64,000 bases of DNA from Albimonas pacifica (lineage in GTDB: Bacteria; Pseudomonadota; Alphaproteobacteria; Rhodobacterales; Rhodobacteraceae): positions 186,001-250,000 of the forward strand of contig NZ_FOQH01000004.1 in NCBI RefSeq assembly GCF_900113695.1. The letters are read 5' to 3'. The position numbers were made by a program, and so were the translations under genes. Positions within the stretch are counted from its first letter, which is position 1. The number at the start of each line of letters is the position of its first letter. Under the pieces are notes generated by a model. It was not told the origin of the DNA, ran no database searches, and saw only the letters and a list, made by a program, of their open reading frames with translations. Below are positions 27,086 through 57,185 of this stretch, in pieces.

Positions 27086-27106
27086 GCGGGCGCGGGGCAG
27101 CCGGGC

Positions 27107-33318: not shown

Positions 33319-33356
33319 CGCCCGCCCCGTAGCCCCCGCGACGCAGGCCCACCCGT

Positions 33357-33618
33357 GAGCGCCTGTTCTCCGGAGCCGTCCGTCGCTGATGCCGTAAGAG
33401 CGAGTCGGCCGGAGCGGTCAAGGATCGCGAAGCGACCCGCGCTTGTGCGGGCTCGTCCTTGACCGCTCCGGCCGACTCGCTCAGGCATCAACAGCGACGG
33501 ACGGCTGCGGAGGACAGGCGCGGGCCTGTTCTTGGGTGAGTTCCAGAAGCGCCCCCGCAGGCGCCAGCCTGCGCGCGCGGAACGCGCGCAAGCCAGGCCC
33601 GCCCGCAGGGCGCCTCCG
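33357..33618 (-). repeat. Structured intergenic repeat, copy 1
   Basis: 262 bp filling the gap between the SbcC-like stop (33318) and the reductase stop (33637). It is similar over its whole length to 45533-45797. Positions 33361-33519 fold into one long hairpin. The outer stem is 33361-33393 with 33484-33519 (two mismatches and a 3-nt bulge), the inner stem 33399-33424 with 33456-33481 (26 of 26 paired), and a small apical stem is CCCGC/GCGGG. The rest (33520-33618) holds a second GC-rich hairpin. No protein is encoded. Strand is given as minus because each copy follows a minus-strand gene by 16-18 bp. Confidence 0.85.
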
Positions 33619-33636
33619 AACCCGGGAACCCGCCCC

Positions 33637-34614
33637 TCAGGCTTCGGGATGCGCCGAGGTGATCAGCAGCACCTTGCCGTCCCGCGCGTCGCGGGCCGCA
33701 TGGGCCACCGCCTCGGCCGCCCGCTCCAGCGGATAGCGCGCCGCGACGGGCGCGCCGATCTCGCCGGTCTTCAGCCGCTCGACGAGATAGGCGTAGGTTT
33801 CGGCCACCTTCTCCTTCGGCTGCTCGCGGAACCACTTGGTCAGCCAGAAGCCCTTCAGCGTGATGTCCCGGAACACGAGATGCGAGGGGTCCATCCGGCA
33901 GGGCTCGCCCGACAGCAGCCCGTAGTTGGCGATCACCGCGCCCTCGTCGCACAGTTTCGCCAGCGCCTCGGTCCCCCAGCCGCCGACCGCGTCGAAGGCG
34001 AGCTTCGCGCGGCCCGGCGCGGCGGGGGGAAGCCCCTCGCCGTCATGGACCAGCACCGCGTCGGCGCCGAGCGCATAGAGCCGCTCCTCGGGCCCCGGGC
34101 GGCGGACGACGTTGATCGTCTTCAGGCCCAGCGCCCTGGCCAGCCGGATCACGTTCACGCCCACCGCCGAGTTGGCCGCGTTCTGCGCCACCCAGTCGCC
34201 GGGCTGCAGCCCCACGATGTCCTTGAGCATCGCCAGCGCGGTCGCCGGGTTCGCCTTCAGCATCGCCGCCTGGTCGAGGTCCGCATCCGGCGGGATCGGC
34301 ACCACGGCGGCCCGCGGCAGGGTCATCCGCTCGACCCAGGCCGGGCCGGGGAGGGGGATGGCGAGGTCGCCGACGGCGAGGTCCGTGACGCCCTCGCCGA
34401 TCTCCAGCACGCGGGCCACGCCCTCGGCGCCGGGGATGAAGGGGGGCTCGGGCTTCACGCCGTAGCGGCCTTCCAGCAGCAGCAGGTCGGCGGGGTTCAC
34501 CGACATCGCCAGCATCTGCAGCTTCACCTCGCCCCGGCCGGGGGCAGGGGGCTCGGGCCGGTCGGCGGGGCCGACGGCGGCGAGGCCGTCTCCGGTGGCT
34601 TCCACGACGCGCAT
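33637..34614 (-). CDS. Zinc-independent MDR reductase, 2-enoyl thioester reductase-like
   Basis: 325 residues of the medium-chain dehydrogenase/reductase superfamily without the zinc ligands of alcohol dehydrogenases. The N-terminal domain has SVNPADLLLLEGRYG near residue 38 and PFIPGAEGVARVLEIGEGV near 59. The NADPH domain has DWVAQNAANSAVGVNVIRLARALG near 140, closely resembling the MECR/ETR1 family that reduces trans-2-enoyl thioesters. A quinone reductase role is the alternative. It follows the amidohydrolase gene by 83 bp, probably in one operon under the divergent IclR gene. Confidence 0.82.
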   Translation of the reverse strand: MRVVEATGDGLAAVGPADRPEPPAPGRGEVKLQMLAMSVNPADLLLLEGRYGVKPEPPFIPGAEGVARVLEIGEGVTDLAVGDLAIPLPGPAWVERMTLPRAAVVPIPPDADLDQAAMLKANPATALAMLKDIVGLQPGDWVAQNAANSAVGVNVIRLARALGLKTINVVRRPGPEERLYALGADAVLVHDGEGLPPAAPGRAKLAFDAVGGWGTEALAKLCDEGAVIANYGLLSGEPCRMDPSHLVFRDITLKGFWLTKWFREQPKEKVAETYAYLVERLKTGEIGAPVAARYPLERAAEAVAHAARDARDGKVLLITSAHPEA

Positions 34615-34697
34615 GGTCTCTCTCCTCCTGTTCGTTGCCGCGCAGGGAAGAGGGGATCGCGCCGCGGGTCAATCCCGCGGCGCGAGGGTCCGCAGCG

Positions 34698-35750
34698 TCA
34701 CGCGGACGGCAGCGCCACCCGGTAGACCCGCGAGGCCGTGCCGTGGAACAGCGCCGCCTTCTCCGCCGCCGAGGCGCCCGAGGCGACGCGCTTCAGGGCG
34801 TTCCACAGGGTCGCATAGGTGCAGGCGCCGCGGTCGACGGGGAAATTGCTCTCCATCATGCAGCGCTCGGCCCCGAAGGCCTCGATCACAGGCTCGATCC
34901 AGGGGGCCCAGGCCCTGGCCAGCACCTCGGAGGAGGCCGCCGGCTCGGACAGGAAGCCCTCCAGGTTGCAGAAGGACATCGCGAGGCCGCCGAGCTTCAC
35001 GGTCACGTTGGGGCACTCCGCCAGCGCCTTGATCGAGGCGAGCCAGTGGGGGCGGCGTTCGTCCAGCGTGCCGGCCCAGCGGCCGATGTTCACCGGAGTG
35101 CCGACGTGGTCGAGGATGATCGAGGTCTCGGGGAAGGCCCGCGCCAGGTCGATCACGTCGCCCAGCTGCGGCTCGAACACCCAGGCGTCGAAGCTGAGCC
35201 CGAGGCGCTGCAGATGCGCGAAGCCCTTGCGGAAGGTGGGGTCGAGGTAGAGCCCCGCCGGCGCCCGGCCGTGCATGGGGCCCGAGACCGCGCGGTCCTC
35301 GTCGTTGGCGCCGACGTTGCGGATGCCGCGGAAGCGGTCGGGGGCGCGGTGCATGTGCGCCTCGAGCACCGCGCCCGCGAGGTCGCCCAGCATCAGGTCG
35401 ACGCGGCTGACGATGCCCGCGCACATGCGCTTCGGCCCGAACTGGCCGCTGGCCGCCAGCGCGCCTATGCCGTTGGCGAACTCGGTCTCGCCCAGGGTGT
35501 CGAAGCCCTCGGGCGCGTCCGCGCGGTAGAAGGCGCGGCAGTCCACGAACACCGTCGCCCGCACGTCGTGGCCCGAGTTCATGTCGGCGAGCATCTCGTC
35601 GAACATGTAGTCGGGGACCATCTCCAGCACCTTGTTGAACCCGTGCACGGGCGGCTGCTCGTGCGAGGCGCGGCCGCGCCACAGGTGGTGATGGGGGTCG
35701 ATGATCGGCAGGTCGGGCTCGAGGATCTCCTCGCGCGGGGCGTCGGTCAT
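34698..35750 (-). CDS. Amidohydrolase family protein (amidohydrolase 2)
   Basis: 350 residues of the TIM-barrel metal-dependent hydrolase family that includes 2-pyrone-4,6-dicarboxylate lactonase. The metal motif HHHLW occurs near residue 19 (IIDPHHHLWRG), LDHVGTPVN near 215 supplies a further His, and ESNFPVDRG near 302 the C-terminal Asp. It would hydrolyse a lactone, amide or decarboxylate a small acid. Of two close ATGs, 35750 has AGGAG at a normal 6-nt distance. It is divergent from the IclR gene at 36128 and is followed by the MDR reductase gene. Confidence 0.87.
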   Translation of the reverse strand: MTDAPREEILEPDLPIIDPHHHLWRGRASHEQPPVHGFNKVLEMVPDYMFDEMLADMNSGHDVRATVFVDCRAFYRADAPEGFDTLGETEFANGIGALAASGQFGPKRMCAGIVSRVDLMLGDLAGAVLEAHMHRAPDRFRGIRNVGANDEDRAVSGPMHGRAPAGLYLDPTFRKGFAHLQRLGLSFDAWVFEPQLGDVIDLARAFPETSIILDHVGTPVNIGRWAGTLDERRPHWLASIKALAECPNVTVKLGGLAMSFCNLEGFLSEPAASSEVLARAWAPWIEPVIEAFGAERCMMESNFPVDRGACTYATLWNALKRVASGASAAEKAALFHGTASRVYRVALPSA

Positions 35751-36127
35751 GGGCATCTCCTGGCTCCTCCCGGCCGCGGTGGATAAGGCGGCCTTGGTTT
35801 TTGCGGACATGGAAGGCAGGGTGAAGGGCGCAGGGCAAGGAGTTTCTCTGCCGGCCGGTCGGAAGCTCCGGGAATTGCTGCGCTGCAAGAGACGCGCGCT
35901 TGACAATGCCCCGGCCCTGCAGAAGTCTGAAAACAAGTCGGCCGCATCGAAATTCGATATGGTCGGGACCTGCCGGAGCCTCCGCCTCCGGCCGCGCCCG
36001 GCCCCGGAGCGTCGGTCGGCGACCGCCCCCGTCTCGCCGCCCCGTTCCCGGGCCCAGAGGTTCCGCAGGGGGCTTCCGCCTGACCGGGGCGCCGCCGCGC
36101 GCCCGAGCTCCGAGCCCGAGGACGCGT
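35751..36127. other. 377-bp divergent gap between amidohydrolase and IclR genes
   Basis: Holds the palindrome at 35946-35958 and, on the plus strand, a TTGACA at 35900-35905 that could be a -35 box for the IclR gene. A lone GGTGGATAA at 35778-35786 resembles a DnaA box but has no companions. No coding sequence is supported. Confidence 0.4.
35946..35958. promoter_or_regulatory. ATCGAA-A-TTCGAT palindrome, likely IclR operator
   Basis: Perfect 6-bp arms around one base, an AT-rich island in very GC-rich DNA, located between the divergent amidohydrolase and IclR genes. IclR regulators commonly bind such palindromes in the gap next to their own gene. Confidence 0.5.
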
Positions 36128-36919
36128 ATGAGCCAGCCGCACCGCTTTCCCACGATCGACGATCGCCTGTTCCTGCAGTCGGTCAGCCGTGCGCTGGACG
36201 TGATCGAGGCCTATGCCGCCTCGCCGCGCCCGATGTCGCTGGGCGAGATCGCGGAGGCCGCAGGCATCAACAAGTCCGCCGCCCAGCGCATCGGCCAGAC
36301 CCTGCTCAGCCGCGGCTACCTCGAGCAGACCGAGACCGGGCGGCTGAAGCTGGGCCGGCTGTTCCTGGACCGCAGCTTCGACTACCTGCGCTCGAACGAG
36401 CTGATCGAGCGGGCGACGCCGGTGCTGACCGACCTTCGCAAGGCCGCCGAGGAGCGGGTGGACCTGTCGCTGTTCGATCCGGTGAACGACAGCCTGTCCA
36501 TCGTCTACGCGACCCGGATGCAGTCGAAGCGCGAGACCTTCTACGCCACGCTGGCCGGGCGGCGGCAGCCGACCTATGCGACCTCGGGCGGGCGGGCGTG
36601 CCTGGCGCTGCTGCCGGACGAGGAGGTGGACGACATCCTCGCGCGGTCCGTGATCACCCGGCTGACGCCCAAGACCGAGACCGACCTCGAGACGATCCGC
36701 GCCGCGGTGATGCAGGCGCGCGCCGACGGCTACTGCCTGGGCGTCGAGCAGGCGCTGCTGGGCGAGATCGCCCTTGCGGCCGCGATCCGCGACCGCAACG
36801 GCCGGCCGATCGGCGCGGTGCATATCGCGGGCTCGCTCTCGGAGTGGACCGAGCCCGACTTCCGCCGCCGCTTCGCCCCCATGGCCATGGAGGCAGCCGG
36901 CGCGCTCAGCGGCGGCTGA
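36128..36919 (+). CDS. IclR-family transcriptional regulator
   Basis: 263 residues. The winged helix spans about residues 12-75 (LQSVSRALDVIEAYAASPRPMSLGEIAEAAGINKSAAQRIGQTLL), and the effector domain about 90-255 (YATSGGRACLALLPDEEVDDIL, GYCLGVEQALLGEIALAAAI). The ATG at 36128 keeps the usual short N-terminus; the frame extends upstream through non-family residues. It is divergent from the amidohydrolase/MDR pair and probably controls it in response to their substrate. Confidence 0.9.
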   Translation: MSQPHRFPTIDDRLFLQSVSRALDVIEAYAASPRPMSLGEIAEAAGINKSAAQRIGQTLLSRGYLEQTETGRLKLGRLFLDRSFDYLRSNELIERATPVLTDLRKAAEERVDLSLFDPVNDSLSIVYATRMQSKRETFYATLAGRRQPTYATSGGRACLALLPDEEVDDILARSVITRLTPKTETDLETIRAAVMQARADGYCLGVEQALLGEIALAAAIRDRNGRPIGAVHIAGSLSEWTEPDFRRRFAPMAMEAAGALSGG

Positions 36920-36948
36920 CCCCTCCGGGAGGGCCGCCCGCCCCGGGG

Positions 36949-36973
36949 GCGCCCCGGACCTGATCCGGGGCCC
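36949..36973. terminator. GC palindrome between convergent iclR and kinase genes
   Basis: CCCCGGA (36952-36958), a 5-nt loop and TCCGGGG (36964-36970), extended by GC/GC pairs on both sides. It lies 30 bp past the IclR stop and 30 bp before the kinase stop, so it can end both transcripts. It belongs to the same palindrome family as 7535 and 19319. Confidence 0.6.
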
Positions 36974-37002
36974 CCGGCGCCCGGCCGGCGGCAGGCGCGG
37001 CG

Positions 37003-39690
37003 CTACTCGGCCGCCGCAGCGTCCGCGGGGCGCTCGGCGGCGGTCAGGCGGCATTCGAAGCGGGCGCCGGTCTCGGGCCGGGCCAGCGTCAGGTCGCCCC
37101 CGAACCGGCGCAGGATCTCGCGGCTGATGGCGAGGCCCAGGCCCGCCCCGCCCGGATCCGTGCGGTCCCAGCCGCGGGAGAACTTCTGGAAGATCCGCTC
37201 GCGGTCGGCCTCGACCACGCCGGGGCCGTCGTCCTGGATGGCGATCACCACCTGGTCGCCCGCGCGCGCGGCCTCGACCCAGACGCGGGGGCGCTCGCGG
37301 TTCGAGTATTTCACCGCGTTCGACAGCAGGTTGATGAAGACCTGCGCCAGGCGGTCGGGCTCGCCCTGCACCCACAGCTCGGGCTCGTCGATGCGCAGGT
37401 CGATCTCGGCGCGGGCCTCGCGCGCCACGCCGCGCACGGTGTCCACCGCCCGGCGCAGGGCGTCGGCCGCGTCGGTCGGCGCGACGGGGAGCTGCACCTG
37501 CCCCCGCTCCAGCACGCTCAGGTCCAGGATCTGGTCCAGCAGGCGGGTCAGGCGCAGGCTCTCGTCATGGATGATGCGCAGGAAGCGCTGCGCCTCCGGC
37601 CGGTCCATGGCGTCGGCCTCGAGCAGGATCTCCGAGAAGCTGCGCACCGAGGTCATCGGCGTGCGCAGCTCGTGGCTGACCTGGCTGAGGAAGTCGTCCT
37701 TCTGGGCGTCGAGCTCCCGCAGGCGGGCGTTGGCCTCGCGAAGCTGGGCGAGCGCGCGCTCCAGCTCGCCAGACTTGCGCTCGACCTCCTGGGAATACTC
37801 CATGATCCGCACCGTCTCGTCGGCGATGCGCATCAGCTCCGAGAGCGAGATGGTCTCGTTCCCCGCGGCCTTGGTGACCATGGCGTGCGCGGTGGCGGCG
37901 CCGACCGAGCCCGCCAGCTCCCGCTCCAGCCGCTGCACGAAATGGTCGGTGGCGGCCGGCAGCCCCTCGTCCCGGCCCTGTTCGGCGGCGGCATCGACGA
38001 AGAGGCGCCGCGCGGGCTCGGCGCCCAGGATCCGCTGGGCGAGGACGAAGAGGTCCTCCGAGGCGGCGGAGCGGCGCAGGACGCCGGCGGTGTCCTCGTC
38101 CCCGGTGCGGAACACGTCGACGAAGATCGCCGACTGCAGCCACTCCAGCGGGCTCGGTTCGCGCAGCAGCGAGACGACGGTCAGCAGGGCGACGTTGGCC
38201 GACAGGCTCCAGAAGGTGGCGTGGACCAGCGGGTCCAACCCCTCCAGCCCCAGCAGCGCCTGCGGGCGGAGGAGGGCGATCCCCCAGGGGCCGGCCTCCA
38301 TCACCTCCGGCGGCAGGCCGGTGGCGGGCAGCAGCAGGGTCCAGGCCCAGGCCGCGGCGCCGCCCGCCAGCCCCGCCAGCGCCCCCAGCCGCGTCGCCTG
38401 GCGGGTGTAGAGCCCCGCGAGCAGCGGCGGCAGGAACTGCGCCGCGCCGAGGAAGGCGATCAGGCCGATGGAGGCGAGCGCCGCGTTCCCCTCCGACAGC
38501 TGGTGCCACAGGAAGCCCAGCGTCAGCACGCCCACGATCGAGCCGCGCCGCCCCAGCAGCACGATGCGCCGCACGTCGCCCGAGAACGCCTCCGACTCCG
38601 CCCGCGCCCGCAGCGCCAGCGGCGTCACGATGTGGTTCGAGACCATGGTCGAGAGCGCGATGGACGACACGATCACCATCGAGGTGGCCGAGGAGAAGCC
38701 GCCGAGAAAGACGAAGATCGCCAGCGCCGTCTTGCCCTCGGCCAGCGGCAGGGAGAGCACGAAGAGGTCGGGGTTCGCCCCCTCGGGCAGCAGGCGCAGG
38801 CCGGCGGCGGCGATGGGCAGGACCGACAGGCACATCACCAGCAGGTAGAGCGGGAACAGCCACGAGGCGGTGGCGAGGCTGCGCTCGTCGTCGTTCTCGA
38901 CCACCGTCACCTGGAACTGGCGGGGCAGGCAGAGGATCGCCGCGCCCGAGAGCATGGTGATCACCGCCCAGCGCGCGTCGAAGGTGGTCTCGACCTGCAG
39001 CAGCTCCGGCGTCATGTCGGCCATGGTCGCGCCGACCCCGCCGTAGAGGCCGAAGACCACGAAGGCCCCGACCGCGGTCAGGGCCGCGAGCTTGACCAGC
39101 GCCTCGACCGCGATGGCCGCGACGACGCCGAAGTGGCGCTCGTTCACGTCCGCGGAGCGGGTGCCGAAGAGGACGGTGAAGACGGCCATGCCGGCGGCCA
39201 CCCAGAAGGCCGCGACGCCCCCCTCCTCGGCCCCGGGGACCGAGAACAGGGCGAAGCTCTCGGTCACGGCCTTGAGCTGGAGGGCGATGTAGGGCGTGCA
39301 GGCGACGACGGCGAGCAGGGTGACGAGCACGGCGATCGAGGGGCTCTTGCCGTAGCGCGAGGACAAGAGGTCCGCGATGGAGGTGATGCGCTGCGAGCGG
39401 CCGATGCGCACCATCTTGCGCAGCACCCACCACCAGCCGGCGAAGACCAGCGCGGGGCCGGTGTAGATCGCCACGAACTCCAGCCCCCCGCGGGCGGCGG
39501 AGCCGACGGCGCCGTAGAAGGTCCAGGAGGTGCAGTAGACCGAGATCGACAGCGTGTAGACCACCGGCGAGGCCAGCCAGTCCGCCCCCGGCCGCCGCAT
39601 CCGCCGGTCGGCCCAGAAGGCCACGGCGAACAGCGCGACGACGTAGAGCAGGCAGACGCCCAGCAGCAGGTCGGTGGAGACGCCGCTCAC
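37003..39690 (-). CDS. Sodium/solute symporter-like sensor histidine kinase
   Basis: 895 residues joining a transporter to a kinase. Residues 1-500 have about 13 membrane helices of the SSS (PutP-like) fold, beginning LLLGVCLLYVVALFAVAFWAD. A linker of about 120 residues and a coiled coil (about 620-665) follow. The kinase core has the phospho-acceptor His673 in SHELRTP, the N box NLLSNAVKYSN near 788, DDGPGV near 820 and GAGLGLAISREI near 848. It resembles CbrA/CrbS kinases, which sense nutrients such as histidine or acetate. The start is GTG. The small membrane gene and a response regulator gene lie just upstream. Confidence 0.9.
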   Translation of the reverse strand: MSGVSTDLLLGVCLLYVVALFAVAFWADRRMRRPGADWLASPVVYTLSISVYCTSWTFYGAVGSAARGGLEFVAIYTGPALVFAGWWWVLRKMVRIGRSQRITSIADLLSSRYGKSPSIAVLVTLLAVVACTPYIALQLKAVTESFALFSVPGAEEGGVAAFWVAAGMAVFTVLFGTRSADVNERHFGVVAAIAVEALVKLAALTAVGAFVVFGLYGGVGATMADMTPELLQVETTFDARWAVITMLSGAAILCLPRQFQVTVVENDDERSLATASWLFPLYLLVMCLSVLPIAAAGLRLLPEGANPDLFVLSLPLAEGKTALAIFVFLGGFSSATSMVIVSSIALSTMVSNHIVTPLALRARAESEAFSGDVRRIVLLGRRGSIVGVLTLGFLWHQLSEGNAALASIGLIAFLGAAQFLPPLLAGLYTRQATRLGALAGLAGGAAAWAWTLLLPATGLPPEVMEAGPWGIALLRPQALLGLEGLDPLVHATFWSLSANVALLTVVSLLREPSPLEWLQSAIFVDVFRTGDEDTAGVLRRSAASEDLFVLAQRILGAEPARRLFVDAAAEQGRDEGLPAATDHFVQRLERELAGSVGAATAHAMVTKAAGNETISLSELMRIADETVRIMEYSQEVERKSGELERALAQLREANARLRELDAQKDDFLSQVSHELRTPMTSVRSFSEILLEADAMDRPEAQRFLRIIHDESLRLTRLLDQILDLSVLERGQVQLPVAPTDAADALRRAVDTVRGVAREARAEIDLRIDEPELWVQGEPDRLAQVFINLLSNAVKYSNRERPRVWVEAARAGDQVVIAIQDDGPGVVEADRERIFQKFSRGWDRTDPGGAGLGLAISREILRRFGGDLTLARPETGARFECRLTAAERPADAAAAE

Positions 39691-39700
39691 CGCCCCGGCC

Positions 39701-40102
39701 TCACGGCTCGGGGTCGTGGCGCACCAGCCGGCGGGCCAGCAGCCGGGTGGCGAGGATCATCCCCGACCACAGCAGCATCAGGAACACCAGCGCCGCGGGC
39801 GCGCCGAACAACCGGCCGTCGTGGGCGAAGATCCACACGAAGGGCGGCATCAGCGCAAGGAAGGCGGCGATGGGCACGATGGCGGCCAGCGCCTCGGCCC
39901 GGCGCCGGCGCAGGAAGCGCGGGCGCGCGGAGAGGGCGCCGGGATCGGCCGGGTCGGCGGCCGGGCCCGGGGAAGACGCCGGGTTCGGAGCGGGGTTCGG
40001 CGCCGGGTTCGGGGCCGCAGCGGCGACGCCGGCCGCGGCCGCGCCTGGGGCCGGGGCGGCCGCCGGCTCGGGCGGCGCGGGGCGTCCGGGCGCGGGGCTC
40101 AC
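39701..40102 (-). CDS. Small membrane protein of unknown function
   Basis: 133 residues, GTG start. The N-terminal 60 residues are a Pro/Ala/Asn-rich low-complexity segment with tandem PNPA units. The C-terminal half has two predicted membrane helices (about 70-92 and 98-120) ending in a basic tail. It ends 10 bp before the symporter-kinase gene and follows the response regulator by 24 bp, so it is in that operon. By position it may be a small partner of the symporter-like domain. The family was not recognised. Confidence 0.65.
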   Translation of the reverse strand: MSPAPGRPAPPEPAAAPAPGAAAAGVAAAAPNPAPNPAPNPASSPGPAADPADPGALSARPRFLRRRRAEALAAIVPIAAFLALMPPFVWIFAHDGRLFGAPAALVFLMLLWSGMILATRLLARRLVRHDPEP

Positions 40103-40126
40103 GCCCGCCTCGCCGCGCGGGGGCGC

Positions 40127-40498
40127 TCAGCCGGCGATGAGGCGGTGCACATGATCCACCACGTCGCGGTTGGAGAAGGGCTTGGTGATGAAGGCGTCGG
40201 CGCCGATGTCCTCGGCGGTGCGCCGGTCCTGGGCCTGGCCCTTGGCGGTCAGCATGATCACCGGCAGGCCGGTGGTGGCGGGGTCGGCGCGCAGCCGGCG
40301 CAGGACCTCGAACCCGTTCAGCAGCGGCAGCATCACGTCGAGGATCACCAGGTCCGGCCGATCGGCGGCCAGGCTGCGGCAGGCGCTCTCCCCATCGCCG
40401 GCGTCGTCGACCGTGTAGCCTTCGCGAGACAGGATGAAGCGCAGGGACTCGACGATATGCGGCTCGTCTTCCGCGATCAGCACCCGCTTCGCGTTCAT
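40127..40498 (-). CDS. Single-domain response regulator
   Basis: 123 residues, a lone receiver domain. The acid pocket is Glu10-Asp11, the phospho-acceptor is Asp54 in VILDVMLP, the Thr is in MLTAKGQA and the conserved Lys follows (ITKPFSNRDVV, near 112). There is no output domain, so it must act through protein partners or as a phosphate relay. The ATG at 40498 has GGGGAGG upstream. It is first in an operon with the membrane protein and symporter-kinase genes; the kinase His673 is its likely phosphate donor. Confidence 0.9.
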   Translation of the reverse strand: MNAKRVLIAEDEPHIVESLRFILSREGYTVDDAGDGESACRSLAADRPDLVILDVMLPLLNGFEVLRRLRADPATTGLPVIMLTAKGQAQDRRTAEDIGADAFITKPFSNRDVVDHVHRLIAG

Positions 40499-40812
40499 CC
40501 CTCGTCCTCCCCTGGCGGCCCTCGCACGGGGCCTCGACGCGGGCTTCGCGGCGGCCCGCCGTTGGGTTCAGATTAGGGCCAGATGCCAGGTGGGGAAAGC
40601 CCGGGAGTGGACTCGCACGTCAGGAGAGTCCGCGGCGGCCCGGGCGTCCCTCGGTCAGCTCCCCGTCAGAGCCTCGGCCCGCCCCTCCGACCGGGGCCCC
40701 CGGGCCGCCCGGCGCGACGCCCGCCCCGCGCCGCGGGCGCAGGAGCGGCCCCGGGCGCGCGGCCCGACGCGGCGCCCGCGCGGGGGGTCGGGAACGCAGG
40801 CTCAGGGGCGGA
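40499..40812. other. 314-bp gap between GST and response regulator genes
   Basis: Must contain the promoter of the response regulator/kinase operon. A minus-strand TAATCT (40575-40570) with TTCCCC 16 bp upstream is a weak candidate. The part nearer the GST stop is GC-rich and shows nothing recognisable. Confidence 0.35.
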
Positions 40813-41466
40813 TCAGAACTCCACTTCCAGCTCGACGATCTCGTCGGGCTCGGCCATGGCGCCCTCGGTCCATTCCTTCATCAGGTCCCACTCGAAGACC
40901 GTGTCGCAATAGGCCTGCAGCTTGGGCTCCAGCGGCACGGCGTAGGTGCGGAAGCGGGTGCAGACCGGGGCCCACATGGCGTCGGCCATGGTCGGGCGGC
41001 CGAACAGGAACGGGCCGCCGTAGGCGTCCAGGCACTCGGTCCAGATCTCCTTCACCCGCTCCACGTCGGGCCGCGCGCCGGAGAAGATCTTGAAGCTCTT
41101 GTGCTGCGCCTTGAGGTTCATCGGCAGGGCCGAGCGCAGGTTGTAGAAGCCCGAGTGGATCTCGCCCGAGACCGCGCGGCAGTGCGCGCGCTTGGCCTTG
41201 CCCTCGGGCAGCAGCTTCGCCTCGGGGTACTCCTCGTTAAGGTAGTTGGCGATGGCGAGCGTGTCCCAGACCGTCACCTCGCCGTCCACGAGGCGTGGCA
41301 CCAGGACCGAGGGGCTGAGCAGCAGCAGCTCCTGGCGCTGGTCGGGGTCGTCCATGTCTACCGGGACCTCGTCGAAGTCGAGCCCCGCCATCTTGCACAG
41401 CAGCCAGCCGCGCAGCGACCAGGCGCCGTAGTTCTTCGAGGAGATGGTCAGCGTCGCCTTCGCCAT
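40813..41466 (-). CDS. Glutathione S-transferase family protein
   Basis: 217 residues. The N-terminal thioredoxin-like domain (about 1-80) starts ISSKNYGAWSLRGWLL, with Ser or Tyr candidates for glutathione activation near residue 10-16, and has SPSVLVPRLVDGEVTVWDTLAIANYL, the cis-Pro and glutathione-binding region. The all-helical C-terminal domain spans about 90-205 (LFGRPTMADAMWAPVCTRF). The ATG at 41466 has AGGAGGA upstream; the frame extends 41 residues further only as noise. It is divergent from phaZ by 182 bp. Substrate unknown. Confidence 0.88.
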   Translation of the reverse strand: MAKATLTISSKNYGAWSLRGWLLCKMAGLDFDEVPVDMDDPDQRQELLLLSPSVLVPRLVDGEVTVWDTLAIANYLNEEYPEAKLLPEGKAKRAHCRAVSGEIHSGFYNLRSALPMNLKAQHKSFKIFSGARPDVERVKEIWTECLDAYGGPFLFGRPTMADAMWAPVCTRFRTYAVPLEPKLQAYCDTVFEWDLMKEWTEGAMAEPDEIVELEVEF

Positions 41467-41564
41467 TGCGGAAGTCCTCCTGATCGCCGTCCGGCGCAGC
41501 CCCCGCGCCGGCCCGCGCCGTTCTTGCGGCGCCGCTCCGCCTGCACCATACTCCCGGGAATGAC

Positions 41565-41575
41565 GCAGTGCAGCA
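41565..41575. promoter_or_regulatory. Possible PhaR-like site upstream of phaZ
   Basis: On the minus strand this reads TGCTGCACTGC. PhaR of Paracoccus denitrificans recognises CTGC-N3-GCAG (established); this site keeps CTGC-N3-GC. It lies 74 bp before phaZ. A full CTGC-ACT-GCAG occurs at 50771-50781. No phaR gene is in the window. Confidence 0.3.
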
Positions 41576-41648
41576 CAATTGTCTCGCACGCCGCGGGGGC
41601 TTGCGCTAGCGTTTCGTGAAGCCGGGGATGCGGTCTGGAGTCTCGCCC

Positions 41649-42863
41649 ATGCTCTACCAAGCCTACCAGTTCAGCGACGACGCGCTGGCGCCCCTGCGCC
41701 TGGCCGCGCGCTGGGGCCAGGTCTGGAGCGGGTTCGCGGGCGGAGCGGCGGGGGACGAGCTCTCCCGGCGTCTCGGCGCCTCGCTGGAGATGCTCTCGCG
41801 CTTCCAGCTCACCCACGCCCGCCCCGCCTGGGGGATCTCCGAGGTGCAGGTCGGCAACCGCGTGGTCCCGGTGACGGAGGAGATCACGCTCTCGCTGCCC
41901 TTCGGCGACCTGCTGCGCTTCGCCAAGGACGTGGACGCAGCCCAGCCCAAGGTGCTGATCGTGGCGCCGCTGTCGGGCCATTTCGCCACCCTGCTGGCGG
42001 GCACCGTGCAGACCATGCTGCAGGACCACGACGTCTACGTCACCGACTGGGCCAACGCCCGCGACGTGCCGATGCGGGAAGGGAAATTCGGGGTCGAGGA
42101 CTACATCGACTACCTGATCCGCTTCCTCGAAGAGATGGGCCCCGGCGCCCACGTGCTGGCCGTCTGCCAGCCCTGCGTGCAGACGCTGGCCGCCGTCGCG
42201 ATCATGTCGGAGCGCAGGAACAACTGCACGCCCCGCACCATGACCCTGATGGCCGGCCCCATCGACGTGCGCGAGAGCCCGACCTCGGTCAACGACCTCG
42301 CCAACGAGAAGACGCTGAGCTGGTTCAAGGAGCGGATGATCCAGACCGTCCCCTGGCGCCACAAGGGCGGCGGCCGGCGGGTCTACCCCGGCTTCGTGCA
42401 GCTGATCAGCTTCATGATGATGAACATGGAGCGCCACAAGACCACCCACAAGAAGCTCTACGACCATCTCGAGGCCGGCGAGCTCGCCGAGGCCGAGAAG
42501 ATCAAGACCTTCTACGACGAGTATTTCGCGGTCCTCGACCTGACGGAAGAATTCTACATCGAGACCATCGACCGGATCTTCCAGAAGGCCCAGCTCGCCA
42601 CCGGCGAGTTCACCTGGCGCGGCAAGCCGGTCGACCCCTCGAAGATCACCCGCACCGCGCTGCTGACGGTGGAGGGCGGGCGCGACGACATCTGCGCGCT
42701 GGGCCAGACCTCGGCCGCGCACGACCTGTGCTCGTCTCTGCGCCCGCATCTCAAGCGCCACCACCTGCAGGCCAACGTGGGCCACTACGGCGTGTTCAAC
42801 GGCCGCCGCTGGGAGAACGAGATCTACCCGGTGGTGCGCAACATGATCCTCGCCATGGAGTGA
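41649..42863 (+). CDS. phaZ: Intracellular polyhydroxyalkanoate depolymerase
   Basis: 404 residues, the usual length. It begins MLYQAYQFSDDALAPLR, the family start. The alpha/beta-hydrolase core has VLIVAPLSGHFATLLAGT near residue 103, and the nucleophile elbow contains cysteine instead of serine (VCQPCVQT near 175), as in intracellular PHB depolymerases; the final His is in HYGVFNGRRW. It releases 3-hydroxybutyrate from storage granules. The ATG at 41649 is preferred to one 33 bp upstream because it matches family N-termini and has GGAG nearby. Confidence 0.92.
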   Translation: MLYQAYQFSDDALAPLRLAARWGQVWSGFAGGAAGDELSRRLGASLEMLSRFQLTHARPAWGISEVQVGNRVVPVTEEITLSLPFGDLLRFAKDVDAAQPKVLIVAPLSGHFATLLAGTVQTMLQDHDVYVTDWANARDVPMREGKFGVEDYIDYLIRFLEEMGPGAHVLAVCQPCVQTLAAVAIMSERRNNCTPRTMTLMAGPIDVRESPTSVNDLANEKTLSWFKERMIQTVPWRHKGGGRRVYPGFVQLISFMMMNMERHKTTHKKLYDHLEAGELAEAEKIKTFYDEYFAVLDLTEEFYIETIDRIFQKAQLATGEFTWRGKPVDPSKITRTALLTVEGGRDDICALGQTSAAHDLCSSLRPHLKRHHLQANVGHYGVFNGRRWENEIYPVVRNMILAME

Positions 42864-43048
42864 GGCCCCCGTCTCGCCGCGCGGCCTTTCGCGCCTGCGG
42901 GACGGTCTCCGCGCCCCGTTGATCCGCCGGAAGCCCGGACCGGAGACATCCGCTCCACGCCTCGCGCGCCACGGGGCGACGGAAGGGAGACCGCGGCCGC
43001 GTGGCGGCCGCCGGCGGATCGCGCGCCCCCGCCGACCGGCGCCACGAT

Positions 43049-43341
43049 CAGGCTGCGCCGCCTCGCCGACCTCGGGACCGGCGAGCCGCTCGACGGCATC
43101 GTCTCGTCGATCTCCCGGGGGGAGGCGGCGGTGCGCGAGGTCGAGGCCGCCAGCCGCGAGCCGTCGGCGGGGGTCTAGGAGATCCCCCTCGCGATCGGCC
43201 GCATGGACCAGATGACCCGGCAGAACGCCACGCTGGCGGAACGCACCGCCTCGGGCTCGCGCGACCTGCTGGCGGGGGCGCGGGAGCTGGCCGACCTGCG
43301 GTCGTTCTTCAGCCGCGTCGGCCGCGCGGATGCGCGCCGGG
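43049..43341 (+). pseudogene. Decayed methyl-accepting chemotaxis protein fragment
   Basis: The plus-strand frame reads LDGIVSSISRGEAAVREVEAAS..., then after an in-frame TAG at 43176-43178 EIPLAIGRMDQMTRQNATLAERTASGS and ELADLRSFF. This is the C-terminal end of the MCP signalling domain, where intact proteins read QEI.. in place of the stop and ...MDQMTQQNAAMVEE. No intact upstream part exists; phaZ ends at 42863. The sequence type (MDQMTRQNA) differs from the intact MCP at 53387, so it is not a duplicate of that gene. Boundaries are approximate. Confidence 0.75.
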
Positions 43342-43508
43342 CGGTCGCGAAGAAGACCGCCGCCTGCCGCGCCCCACCCGGGCGGGCGCGCCGGAGACCC
43401 TCGCCCGGCCGAGCGGCGTCCCCGGCCCGGGCCGCCCGGGCGCCCCGCCGCCCGCGCGTCCGGCCGGGGTCGACGGCCTCCGCGCCGGACGGGCCCCGGG
43501 CATGGGAA

Positions 43509-43576
43509 CGCCTGCCGGGAGGCGATCCCGGCAGGCGTCGAGACGGCGCATCGGCCGCGCCGCGGGGGCGCGGCCG
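43509..43576 (-). terminator. Two tandem hairpins after the Old Yellow Enzyme gene
   Basis: CGGCCGCGCC/GGCGCGGCCG (43552-43561 with 43567-43576) lies 6 bp past the stop codon of the minus-strand gene. A second perfect 11-bp stem, CGCCTGCCGGG/CCCGGCAGGCG (43509-43519 with 43527-43537), follows. No T tract is present. Tandem strong stems suggest a terminator. Confidence 0.6.
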
Positions 43577-43582
43577 GCAGGC

Positions 43583-44686
43583 TCAGGCGGCCCGGGTCTG
43601 CGCCAGCGTCGGGTAGTCGGTGTAGCCCTCGGCCCCGCCGCCGTAATAGGTGGCGGCGTCGCCCTCGTTCAGCGGCGCGTCCGCGGCCAGCCGCTCGACG
43701 AGGTCCGGGTTGGCGATAAAGGGGCGGCCGAAGGCCACCACGTCCGCCGCGCCGCTTTCGACCGTCTTCATCGCGAGATCCCGGTCATAGCCGTTGTTGG
43801 CCATGTAGGCCCCGTCGAACAGCTTGCGCAGCGCGGGGATCGAGCGCCCCTCGGCCAGCTCCCGCGGGCCGCCGGTCTGGCCCTCGACCAGGTGCAGATA
43901 GGCCATGCCGCGCCCCGCCAGATGCGTGCCGATGGCGTGGGAGAAAGTGGTCATCGGGTCCGAATCCAGCAGGTCGTTGGCGCCCGAGAAGGGCGACAGG
44001 CGGATGCCCACCCGCCCCGCCGGGATCGCCCCGGTCACCGCGTCCACCACCTCGCCCAGCAGCCGCGCCCGGTTCTCGACCGAGCCGCCGTAGGCGTCGT
44101 CGCGCCGGTTGATCCCGTCCTTGAGGAACTGGTCGATCAGGTAGCCGTTGGCGGCGTGGATCTCGACCCCGTCGAAGCCCGCCTCCATCGCCCGCTCCGC
44201 CGCGCGGGCGTAGTCGGCGACGACGCCGGGGATCTCGTCGGTGCGCAGGGCGCGCGGGGCCGAGGTCTCGACGAAGCCGCGGTCCTTGAGGAAGGTCTTC
44301 ACCGCCGCCGGCGTGGCCGAGGACGACACCGGCGCCTCGCCCCCCGGCAGCAGCTCGGAATGCGAGATCCGGCCGACGTGCCAGAGCTGGATCACGATCC
44401 TGCCGCCGCGCGCGTGCACGGCCGAGGTGATCGCCTTCCAGCCCTCGACCTGCGCCGGCGTGTAGATGCCCGGCGTCATCGCATAGCCCTTGCCGCGCGG
44501 CGAGATCTGGCTCGCCTCGGTGATCAGCAGCCCGCCCGAGGCGCGCTGGGCGTAGTATTCGGCCGCAAGCGGGCTCGGCACGCCGGTCGCGTCGTCCGCC
44601 CGGTTGCGGGTCAGGGGCGCCAGCGCGATGCGGTTGGCGATCTCGATGTCGCCGAGGCGCGTCGGCGTGAAGAGGGGATGGGTCAC
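43583..44686 (-). CDS. Old Yellow Enzyme-family NADH:flavin oxidoreductase
   Basis: 367 residues, an FMN TIM barrel. Landmarks are IALAPLTRNRADDATGVP near residue 20, LWHVGRISH near 103, HAANGYLIDQFLKDGINRRDD near 178 (His and Asn that bind the substrate oxygen) and AFGRPFIANPDLVERL near 325. It reduces activated alkenes or nitro/N-ethylmaleimide-like electrophiles. The start is GTG at 44686 behind AAGGAA. A TetR-type operator overlaps its promoter, and the tetR gene lies 78 bp upstream on the same strand, an arrangement like nemR-nemA. Confidence 0.92.
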   Translation of the reverse strand: MTHPLFTPTRLGDIEIANRIALAPLTRNRADDATGVPSPLAAEYYAQRASGGLLITEASQISPRGKGYAMTPGIYTPAQVEGWKAITSAVHARGGRIVIQLWHVGRISHSELLPGGEAPVSSSATPAAVKTFLKDRGFVETSAPRALRTDEIPGVVADYARAAERAMEAGFDGVEIHAANGYLIDQFLKDGINRRDDAYGGSVENRARLLGEVVDAVTGAIPAGRVGIRLSPFSGANDLLDSDPMTTFSHAIGTHLAGRGMAYLHLVEGQTGGPRELAEGRSIPALRKLFDGAYMANNGYDRDLAMKTVESGAADVVAFGRPFIANPDLVERLAADAPLNEGDAATYYGGGAEGYTDYPTLAQTRAA

Positions 44687-44703
44687 GGGGGGATTCCTTT
44701 TAT

Positions 44704-44717
44704 GGACCGGACATTCC
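44704..44717 (-). promoter_or_regulatory. TetR-type operator before the Old Yellow Enzyme gene
   Basis: GGACCG-GA-CATTCC matches the palindrome at 45407-45420 at 10 of 14 positions, and 11 of 15 with the preceding T. On the minus strand it lies just before CATAAA, a likely -10 box, 17 bp from the start codon. Confidence 0.55.
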
Positions 44718-44764
44718 AGAATTGAGCGCGACCCTTCGTCCGGGCGGATCGCGAGGGCGGGATT

Positions 44765-45394
44765 TCAGGCGCCGAGCAGCCTCCGCGCCTCCCGGCGCAG
44801 GCTCTCCACCGCCTCGTCGGAGGCGCCCGACTTGCGCATCACCCCGGCCCCCAGGGCCAGGGCGTAGGCGGCGCGGGCGCGCTCGGGGGCCTCGGCCTCG
44901 CCCACCAGGGGGGCTGCGAGGGCGGCGAAGTCGTCGACCAGGCGGTCCCGGTGGCCGGCGACGATGGCCAGGACGTCGGGGTCCCGCGCGCCGAGCTCGG
45001 CCGCCGCGTCGCCGATGAAGCAGCCGGTGGCGGCCACCTCGACGTCGAAATGCCCGTCGATCGCGGCCCGCGCCTGGGCCGCGGGCGGATCCCCGGGCCG
45101 GGCCAGCGCGCGCAGCGAGGCGCGATGGCCGTCGCACCACCGCTGCAGCACCGCCAGCATCGCGCCCCGCTTGGAGCCGTAGGCGTTGTAGAAGGAGGAC
45201 CGGCTGAGGCCCGCGGCCGAGATCAGCTCCTCGACGCTGGTCGCCTCATAGCCCCGCTCGCGGAACACCTGCGTCAGGGCGGCGAGCACGCCGTCGGGAT
45301 CGTAGCCGCGCGGCCGCCCCGGCCCGCAGCGCCGCTCGGCGCAGGCGGCCGGCCAGGCGGCCGGGAGGGGGGATATCGGGGGCGCGTCGCTCAT
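44765..45394 (-). CDS. TetR-family transcriptional regulator
   Basis: 209 residues. The N-terminal helix-turn-helix is at about residues 30-75 (VLAALTQVFRERGYEATSVEELISAAGLSRSSFYNAYGSKRGAMLAVL). The C-terminal ligand domain resembles the TetR_C group with Cys near residue 115 (EVAATGCFIGDAAAELG), a position at which related repressors sense electrophiles; that function is inferred. The start is ATG 45394, 12 bp from a palindromic operator. It precedes the Old Yellow Enzyme gene on the same strand. Confidence 0.9.
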   Translation of the reverse strand: MSDAPPISPLPAAWPAACAERRCGPGRPRGYDPDGVLAALTQVFRERGYEATSVEELISAAGLSRSSFYNAYGSKRGAMLAVLQRWCDGHRASLRALARPGDPPAAQARAAIDGHFDVEVAATGCFIGDAAAELGARDPDVLAIVAGHRDRLVDDFAALAAPLVGEAEAPERARAAYALALGAGVMRKSGASDEAVESLRREARRLLGA

Positions 45395-45406
45395 GAGCGG
45401 GATATT

Positions 45407-45420
45407 GGAACGCCCGTTCC
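45407..45420 (-). promoter_or_regulatory. tetR promoter palindrome
   Basis: GGAACG-CC-CGTTCC, perfect 6-bp arms. On the minus strand it fills the 17-bp spacer between TTGCAT and AATATC, so bound repressor would block the tetR promoter (autoregulation). A related site precedes the Old Yellow Enzyme gene. Confidence 0.65.
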
Positions 45421-45532
45421 TCAATGCAAGGCGCCCGCGCCGCGCGCCCCCGAAATCCGCCCAGCGCCTCCCGATGAGATCGCCTCGCGCCGTCCGCCCC
45501 CGGCGCCCCGGCGCGACGTCGGCCCCCCGCGA

Positions 45533-45797
45533 GAGCGCCTGTTCTCCGGAGCCGTCCGTCGCTGATGCCGATCAGAGCGACTCGCCCGCCCCGGTCAAGG
45601 ATCGCGCAGCGACCCGGCGAAGCCGGGCTTGTCCTTGACCGGCGCGGGCGAGTCGCTCAGGCATCTTCAGCGATGGACGGATCCGGAGGACAGGCGCGGG
45701 GCCTTGTTCTTGGGTGAGTTCAGAAGCGCCCTCCGCGGGCGCCAGCCCGCCGCGCGCCCCGCGCGCGCACGCCAGGCCCGCCCGCAGGGCGCCTCCG
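45533..45797 (-). repeat. Structured intergenic repeat, copy 2
   Basis: 265 bp, the same element as 33357-33618 in the same orientation. The outer stem pairs 45537-45569 with 45660-45695, the inner stem 45576-45601 with 45632-45657 (25 of 26), and the apical stem is CCCGGC/GCCGGG. Of five positions where the left inner arm differs from copy 1, four are matched by the complementary change in the right arm. It ends 16 bp before the ubiB stop codon. Confidence 0.85.
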
Positions 45798-55936: not shown

Positions 55937-57055
55937 ATGAAGATCAGCGTCGAAAGGGCGGCCCTCCTGAAGGCCATGAGCCGCGCACAGGGCGTCGTCG
56001 AGCGCCGCACCACCATCCCGATCCTGTCGAACGTGCTGCTGGAAGCCTCGGGCGACACGCTGTCGATCCGCGCGACCGACCTCGACGTCGAGGTGCTGGA
56101 GCAGATCCCGGCGCTGGTCGAGCAGGCGGGCGCCACCACCGCGCCGGCGCACATGCTCCACGACATCGTGCGCAAGCTGCCCGACGGGGCGCAGGCGAGC
56201 CTGATCGACGACCCGGCCTCGGGGCGTCTCGAGGTCCGCGCCGGCCGCTCGGACTTCAAGCTGGCGACGCTGCCGCGGGAGGATTTCCCGGTGATGGCGT
56301 CCGCCGACTACGCCTGCGATTTCGAGGCGCCGGCGAAGGTGCTGCGGCGGCTGTTCGACAAGGCCAAGTTCGCGATCTCGACCGAGGAGACGCGGTATTA
56401 CCTCAACGGCGTCTACATGCATGTCGCCGACGGGGCCGAGGGCAAGGCGCTGCGCTGCGTGGCGACCGACGGACACCGGCTGGCGCGGGTCGACGCGCCC
56501 CTGCCGCCGGGCGCCGAGTCGATGCCCGGCGTGATCGTGCCCCGCAAGACGGTGGGCGAGCTGAACCGGCTGCTCTCGGACGACGAGGCGGTGATCCAGG
56601 TCGGCGTGTCGGAGACCAAGGTGCGGTTCCGGGCGAACGGCGTGTCGCTGATCTCGAAGGTCATCGACGGCTCCTTCCCCGACTACACCCGGGTGATCCC
56701 GCAGGGGAATCCCAAGCGGATGGAGGTGGACGCGGCGGAGTTCGCCTCGGCCGTCGACCGCGTGGCGACGGTGAGCTCGGAGCGCTCGCGCGCCGTGAAG
56801 CTGGCGCTGAGCGAGGACCGGCTGGTGTTGTCGGTGAACGCCCCCGACAGCGGCGCCGCGACCGAGGAGGTGGCCGTCGCCTATTCCGAGGACCCGCTCG
56901 AGATCGGCTTCAACGCCCGCTACCTGCTGGAGATCGCCGGCCAGGTGGACCGCGAGAACGCGGTGTTCCTGTTCAACAACTCCGGCGACCCGACCCTGGT
57001 GCGGGAGGGCGACGACGAGAGCGCCGTCTACGTCGTCATGCCGATGCGGGTCTGA
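55937..57055 (+). CDS. dnaN: DNA polymerase III sliding clamp (beta subunit)
   Basis: 372 residues, the standard length, with the three clamp domains. The N-terminus [39 protein letters not shown] is typical, [18 protein letters not shown] opens domain 2 near residue 140, and the protein ends YVVMPMRV, the family C-terminus. It encircles DNA for replication. The promoter must lie in the 291-bp divergent gap from the chemoreceptor gene. recF follows after 130 bp. Confidence 0.97.
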
Positions 57056-57109
57056 GGACCCGGGGACTCCATACCGACGCGCGCCCGGCGGGGGCCGGGT
57101 TCCCCGGCC

Positions 57110-57131
57110 CGGAGGCGCCCTGCGGGCGGGC
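57110..57131 (+). repeat. Fragment of the structured intergenic repeat after dnaN
   Basis: The 22 bp that begin with CGGAGGCGCCCTGCGGGC match, in reverse complement, the right ends of both copies of the element (near 33597-33618 and 45776-45797). It lies 54 bp past the dnaN stop, so relative to its upstream gene it has the same orientation as the full copies. The rest of the element is missing. Confidence 0.55.
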
Positions 57132-57185
57132 TCGGCTGCGTCCCGCCCGTGGCGGAGCGCGGGCTTTTCCCCTCGGGCGAGGCGC

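Follow-up and report, generated by a model that had tools for sequence, protein, structure and literature searches.

Two noncoding copies of one hairpin-forming repeat lie in the same direction within a 64,000-nucleotide stretch of the Albimonas pacifica genome (the window, G000:C35:186001-250000, where G000 is the genome of the window), which raises the question of what kind of element this repeat is, and of why the two arms of its hairpin have changed together. On balance, we consider it probable that the repeat is an old, high-copy, non-autonomous palindromic element that was mobile before two Albimonas species diverged, has since become fixed at intergenic positions, and acts through its written strand in folded form. 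Its copies in the window, their parts, and a solo occurrence of the 3′ terminal module are as follows:

33357-33618, plus strand: copy 1 of the repeat (family profile of 273-274 positions)
33359-33521, plus strand: copy 1 hairpin, 163 nt, made up of outer stem, hypervariable block and conserved tip
33408-33415, plus strand: copy 1 hypervariable block, left arm GCCGGAGC (right arm 33465-33472)
33416-33464, plus strand: copy 1 conserved tip GGTCAAGGATCGCGAAGCGACC...TCCTTGACC, with a GNA-loop mini-hairpin and a variable hairpin
33525-33540, plus strand: copy 1 third site CCTGTTCTTGGGTGAG, which repeats the left foot in direct orientation and is a possible alternative partner for the right foot
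33591-33614, plus strand: copy 1 3′ terminal module, ending GCCCGCCCGCAGGGCGCC
45533-45797, plus strand: copy 2 of the repeat
45535-45697, plus strand: copy 2 hairpin, 163 nt
45585-45592, plus strand: copy 2 hypervariable block, left arm CCCGCCCC (right arm 45641-45648)
45593-45640, plus strand: copy 2 conserved tip
45703-45718, plus strand: copy 2 third site CTTGTTCTTGGGTGAG
45771-45793, plus strand: copy 2 3′ terminal module
57092-57137, minus strand: solo 3′ terminal module, after a plus-strand gene ending at 57055

Two Copies With Matching Arms

An earlier note on this DNA had described two direct, noncoding copies that are alike along their whole length, and this was borne out, as the copies aligned to each other over their full length and the predicted genes lay outside both. 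Either copy folded into about 60-65 pairs, in agreement with the stem of about 60 bp described there, with folding z-scores of -14.1 for copy 1 (as RNA) and -13.9 for copy 2 (as DNA), and with none of 200 shuffles of each as stable. The inner left arms, GAGCGAGTCGGCCGGAGC in copy 1 and GAGCGACTCGCCCGCCCC in copy 2, differed at five positions, four of which were restored by the right arm, exactly as the note had counted; the exception was a change from A-T to C-C.

A Large and Patchy Family

A pattern built on the hairpin tip matched 141 times across the whole 6.02-Mb genome of the window, a count that is free of contig-selection bias, and a backward-pattern control matched nowhere. In a second genome of the genus (G001) the same pattern gave 132 matches; G001 and the genome of Albimonas sp. 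CAU 1670 (G436) were treated as one, and the genus is called Albimonas accordingly, which we infer from the agreement of their match positions. The two copies described earlier are thus real, but they belong to a family of about 141. That only two copies fall in the window might suggest a chance resemblance or a single recent duplication, but set against 141 pattern matches and orthologous copies in another species this is vanishingly improbable, and a two-copy duplication is ruled out by the genome-wide count. Further copies and covariation were both present, and no recent single duplication was found.

A third genome of the genus (G002) had no match to the pattern that gave 141 and 132. Such patchy copy number among these three genomes speaks for past mobility of the repeat, and the same zero speaks against retention by the host as a 3′-end element, an explanation taken up below. 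A second form of the repeat, whose tip has GGC/GCC and so escapes this pattern, does occur in G002 at least once (L144). By a stricter tip pattern three of 394 family genomes were positive, G000 and G001 included, and one copy with an identical outer stem was present in another genus (G022, L143).

To describe the family, a profile was searched against 2.393 Mb of G000, consisting of stretches of 7 of its 68 contigs that were selected for carrying initial matches. This gave 61 places, 57 of them longer than 180 nt. The repeat is about 275 bp long (273-274 profile positions), with the palindrome spanning only the first ~165 nt; copies run from GAGCGCCTGTTC toward GGGCGCCT, and at least 7 of the 57 long copies are cut short at one end. 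Its layout from 5′ to 3′ comprises the long hairpin, CTTGTTCTTGGGTGAGT, a small hairpin (GGAGCCCGCCGGAGGCTCC, at 38 places with up to two mismatches), a free C-rich stretch, and the 3′ module, which was found within elements at 50 places. The idea of a shared 3′ module held in part, since its 18-nt core also occurs alone, in 28 exact solo copies in this sample. A facing gene 3′ end was the neighbour of 27 of the 28, at a distance of 21-462 nt, and three inverted pairs less than 200 bp apart were found among these solo copies of the module (GCCCGCCCGCAGGGCGCC). By eye, the 5′ flanks (33320-33356 and 45500-45531 in the window) are across copies often like GCGACGCCGGCCAGCCCTCGCAAAGCGCC, which is similar to the 3′ module, and at such flanks the element may extend about 35 bp further 5′.

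The foot CTGTTCT is repeated just past the hairpin, so that the right foot is able to pair with either site. Of 105 parsed copies, 104 had identical polymorphic letters at the two sites (TCT-TCT 93, TCC-TCC 9, TTC-TTC 2), a comparison that comprises few independent events and in which 4 of 109 copies were unparsed; the copy in the other genus (L143) obeys the same rule, with GTTTC twice. At C36:306548 the left foot is joined directly to the downstream part and the hairpin is gone, as recombination between two CTGTTCT repeats would leave it.

Pairing Is Kept in the Written Strand

Pairs were counted in 100 of 109 hairpins (56 of 57 from G000 and 44 of 52 from G001/CAU 1670), those left out being duplicates, cut or unparsed (8 of 109 were unparsed in one parse); the second hairpin, whose alignment was too poor to count pairs in, was excluded. 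Across 65 pairs in these 100 distinct hairpins, standard pairs made up 98.3% of 6499 cells, and 23 of the 65 pairs had changed on both sides. None of 500 shuffles reached any of five pairing measures, a test that is inflated by the kinship of the copies, and sliding the partner by 1-3 columns lowered pairing to 37-44%, where the structure, being drawn from the same sequences, is favoured over its slid versions. Because both tests are biased in this way, the argument for pairing rests on the two-sided changes.

G.T and A.C were not equally frequent. G.T occurred in 21 columns and A.C in 7 (binomial p = 0.013), and by cells the counts were 146 and 13, or 47 and 13 without the two commonest polymorphisms; owing to kinship these cells are non-independent, which counts against our reading. 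A duplex or cruciform would be expected to show G.T and A.C alike, and therefore it is the written single strand that appears to be kept foldable. Selection for pairing, which the earlier note had proposed, is supported, and it acts on one strand, the written one, as single-stranded RNA or DNA.

In all 100 hairpins the loop of the mini-hairpin could be read as GNA (GAA 68, GCA 27, GGA 2, and GCA with an extra stem pair 3), and both the tip and the feet were conserved across copies. The loops of the second hairpin are often GCAA or CTTG. C-GNA-G is an exceptionally stable DNA loop, while GCAA and CTTG loops are stable in RNA, and because both kinds occur here, the loops do not discriminate DNA from RNA.

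Strong covariation and conserved unpaired motifs could also be expected of a family of free-standing small RNA genes, but this is very unlikely, given the 141 copies, the lack of any Rfam family at the gathering threshold in the 64-kb window or, as far as this structure is concerned, in another 20 loci, and the failure of a promoter search, which covered the sigma-70-like type only, to find one at copy 1 or 2. All Rfam matches at copy 1 were below threshold. Among them was a weak match on the written strand to the alphaproteobacterial small RNA ar35 (RF02346), at 15.7 bits against a cut-off of 45 (E = 0.93), and this identity was rejected because the score is at chance level.

Copies Lie Between Genes, Mostly at Gene 3′ Ends

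Genes were called with a codon-usage script of our own rather than taken from standard annotation. None of the 57 long copies overlapped a predicted gene, and 53 of them had a gene 3′ end as nearest neighbour on one side or both. Relative to the element in forward orientation, the nearest genes were arranged as +E+ in 22 cases, -E- in 17, +E- in 14 and -E+ in 4, so that divergent gaps were avoided (4 of 57 against 14.7 expected from intergenic length) and convergent gaps exceeded expectation (14 against 9.0; overall chi-square p = 0.003). Stop codons facing the 3′ end of the element (31 cases) were at most 30 nt away in 19, and those facing its 5′ end (36 cases) were 33-187 nt away. In the window, the stop codons of the predicted minus-strand genes beside the two copies start at 33637 and 45814, and a predicted plus-strand gene ends at 33318, before copy 1. 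The distance of 16-18 bp to the minus-strand stops had been given correctly in the earlier note, but it is the 3′ end of the element, as written, that adjoins them.

Such a location, rather than mobility, would explain retention if the repeat were a 3′-end element selected by the host, one that is transcribed with its neighbour gene and serves to protect mRNA 3′ ends or to end or insulate transcription coming from both flanks. RNA is compatible with the excess of G.T in the written strand, and 18 of 19 positions were kept between the two species. The orientation of the element to its neighbours fits this explanation poorly, however, being nearly even in tandem gene pairs (same direction in 22, opposite in 17), and in 21 of 57 copies the written strand is not the one read by the closest gene upstream. 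A search for terminator-like sites, in which a GC hairpin runs directly into a stretch of T, gave none at copy 1 and one at copy 2, against means of 0.1 in shuffled sequence; the long bidirectional terminator suggested earlier fits the location, and fits the sequence less well. One locus does without the element, its convergent genes being 10 bp apart, and the third genome of the genus had no match by the same pattern. We therefore regard selection by the host for a 3′-end function as possible, if less than probable. The orientation of the element was weakly related to GC skew (Fisher p = 0.007-0.05 over five window sizes), and this was not used as support.

Stable Positions and a Changing Block

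To compare orthologous copies, we aligned loci with the elements masked. Eighteen of 19 G000 elements were shared, lying inside regions that aligned to G001/CAU 1670 loci, which had been fetched for holding an element, so that the comparison favours sharing; a separate mapping of 53 elements gave 19 shared (15 distinct, once G001 and CAU 1670 are counted as one genome), none absent, 31 without an orthologue in the sample and 3 one-sided. The flanking alignments of orthologous loci were 81-94% identical.

At these fixed positions the 8-bp block was only 41% identical between orthologues (14 pairs), compared with 54% and 60% within genomes and 46% between unrelated copies of the two genomes. In the hairpin outside the block, the corresponding values were 87.1% for orthologues, 87.0% and 87.9% within genomes, and 84.9% for unrelated copies. 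Within the block of the 14 orthologous pairs, 63 base pairs had changed on both sides, 6 on one side and 43 not at all, and G-C/C-G flips were common among the two-sided changes. In the block, the paired changes thus look like something other than point mutations compensated one by one. The block occurs in discrete types (26 in 56 copies and 19 in 44, with 4 common to both sets) and is nearly unlinked to the variable second hairpin that its arms enclose (adjusted mutual information 0.08 and 0.04). Because contiguous conversion tracts would link the block and the second hairpin, we propose that one arm is converted and the other is then copied from it.

A more radical explanation would dispense with selection for folding altogether and have the arms match only through arm-to-arm repair or re-copying of hairpin DNA. 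Block changes that arise on both sides together, the common G-C/C-G flips, and a block almost unlinked to the hairpin it encloses, unlike the outcome of simple tract conversion, would all suit it. Arm copying alone should treat the strands alike, yet G.T exceeds A.C, and the tip and feet remain conserved; we consider this explanation unlikely.

In the reading that we favour, the repeat would have spread as a mobile element in the common ancestor of the two Albimonas species and then become fixed between genes. Its written strand would act folded as a single strand, in a hairpin of ~60 bp whose tip would be a three-way junction of the stem GGTCAAGGA/TCCTTGACC, the mini-hairpin CGC-GNA-GCG and the variable hairpin. 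The tip would be the recognised part, presumably read by a protein, and the block beneath it would be required only to pair, while the direct repeat of the foot would offer the right foot two possible partners. Copies would exchange and rewrite sequence in concert, both block arms together, with another copy converting one arm before arm-to-arm copying within the hairpin. With ~140 natural hairpins per genome, the rules that govern arm pairing, turnover and concerted change can be studied at fixed positions.

Several observations weigh against this reading. The 18 of 19 shared positions give no sign of recent movement. At the one empty site, 10 bp separate convergent genes, compared with an intergenic ~440 bp where the element is present, and the site may represent loss rather than gain; no target duplication was recognised, and none was clear at this site. 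Outside the block, orthologues were slightly more alike than unrelated copies, and 34 one-sided and 25 two-sided changes were seen among 644 pair comparisons, so that joint two-arm change characterises the block alone and does not extend to the hairpin as a whole. The arm-to-arm copying step is itself a proposal. As for a mobilising enzyme, the families tried were Y1, IS91 and IS110. The Y1 (RAYT/IS200) transposase PF01797 was found in none of the three genomes (controls were positive in 5 of 14), and the IS91 search was uninformative, as its control found nothing either. IS110-type transposases matched only in G000 (C39:94-537 and C64:36576-37019), with none in G001 or G002, and their absence from G001 despite its 132 tip matches speaks against them as mobiliser. 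The earlier suggestion of a non-autonomous mobile element thus agrees with a distribution that is patchy and high in copy number, but the search of these families identified no enzyme that would move it, and 18 of 19 positions are shared.

Relation to Known Repeats

The repeat family is apparently undescribed; its general kind is known, its dynamics are unusual, and its tip is unusually widespread. The literature searches gave nothing on palindromic repeats of Rhodobacteraceae or on REP/RAYT in alphaproteobacteria; in the papers searched, 15-letter strings of the tip were absent, and 11-letter strings occurred in 7 papers, unrelated by title. Neither Rfam nor the literature searched supplied a name or function for the tip.

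REP/BIME units are ~20-40 nt long and are paired with RAYT (Y1) transposases. Compared by description, not sequence, the Albimonas repeat is like them in being extragenic, high in copy number, palindromic and placed beside stop codons, and in having a 3′ module that also occurs solo and in some inverted pairs, but it is several times longer and lacks Y1. Membership in REP/BIME-RAYT was rejected on the absence of Y1 from the three genomes and on a profile of 273-274 positions against a unit of ~20-40 nt. ERIC, RIME, RPE and other palindromic elements between bacterial genes are the subject of a review (PMC2229807). The Albimonas repeat differs from such elements, again by description, in its hypervariable paired block, which turns over at fixed positions, and in a tip shared across phyla. 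It is like them in size (~100-300 bp), intergenic location and foldability, and in having no known mobilising partner gene here. With regard to terminal inverted repeats of the type found in miniature inverted-repeat transposable elements (MITEs), the palindrome takes up just the first ~165 nt and the 3′ end looks different, although the 5′ border is uncertain, no dedicated search having been made.

The Tip in Other Bacteria and on Plasmids

A 22-letter tip pattern, for which a rough estimate of chance gives well under one match, was found in a collection of named genomes in at least 76 stretches, at least 32 of them in CAU 1670. The at least 44 listed stretches outside CAU 1670 came from Rhodobacteraceae, Sphingomonadales, Rhizobiales, Nocardioides and one further bacterium. 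When the third arm was required to be short, 10 of 27 genomes reached through their loci were positive, namely CAU 1670, seven Rhodobacteraceae (1-2 matches each) and two Nocardioides. By this pattern there was no match in another Nocardioides (L217), in G022 or in the plasmid-type genomes, whose long third arm it is unable to bridge.

In Nocardioides (L207, L221, L241, G420/G421) dispersed palindromes carry the same tip, with 12 and 18 matches in two genomes. The second form, seen in Rhodobacteraceae (L192, L178, L193, L194, L246, L233) and in L144 of G002, has the same tip, after which come a second hairpin of variable sequence and letters resembling CTCTCAGCAAA, and in several loci a facing stop codon lies close to its end. 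The tip stem of L144 shows a paired change from A-T to C-G.

In Rhizobiales and sphingomonads, the tip heads a conserved three-way-junction structure of 91-135 nt (27 distinct). In 22 of 32 cases the edge of this structure is 50-63 nt ahead of the ATG that was chosen on the opposite strand. Neighbours in the loci viewed include SSB, DUF736, SLOG-family or mob genes; examples on alphaproteobacterial plasmids include L311:14001-14153 (Aminobacter pMDW2), L183, L179 and L236. A 151-nt query of one plasmid form matched 605 of 72,556 plasmid records, 428 of them predicted conjugative, although only 39 of the 605 matches cover at least 80% of the query; another form matched 36 records, 22 of them conjugative. 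On a Shinella plasmid typed as non-mobilizable, the match lay about 8.8 kb from a relaxase gene. Copy 1 itself, used as a blastn query against plasmids and phages, had no match.

A G.T variant was present on the written strand in 6 of the 27 plasmid-type structures and in the opposite arrangement in 0 of 27, mRNA being the other strand, which favours action of the plasmid-type structure as a folded DNA strand. It is mainly because this G.T lies opposite to the mRNA strand that we take a single-stranded DNA reading of the window repeat seriously. The plasmid-type structure is a candidate single-strand promoter or priming site; a search by eye for a -35/-10 pair in the plasmid form gave nothing convincing. 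Frpo promoters have their -35/-10 within foldable single-stranded DNA and are transcribed as the plasmid enters a cell. Plasmid-type tips are like the Frpo/ssi single-strand promoters of plasmid leading regions in lying near SSB, DUF736 and SLOG genes, in the G.T opposite to mRNA, and, in one mapped conjugative plasmid (Aminobacter pMDW2), in a match that is 2.7 kb from mobC, with the type IV secretion genes lying in the other direction; by description, the Albimonas repeat is unlike them in being multicopy, dispersed and mostly at gene 3′ ends (PMC11541004).

These matches point to a single hairpin tip whose sequence is conserved across a range that takes in Actinobacteria as well as the conjugative plasmids of Rhizobiaceae and sphingomonads. 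A wider proposal, which we put forward tentatively and hold to be rather doubtful, is that the tip is a widespread signal of single-stranded DNA, which conjugative plasmids carry near SSB and DUF736 genes, that it has become the recognition tip of the dispersed repeats of Albimonas and Nocardioides, and that one hairpin-reading protein would link plasmid entry with these genome-wide repeats, which would be multiplied or rewritten through folded single-stranded DNA, their paired block being continually rewritten on both arms.

Elsewhere in the window, at 26878-27102, a 30-bp unit is repeated in tandem in six overlapping register copies, near the end of a predicted gene at 24281-27085.

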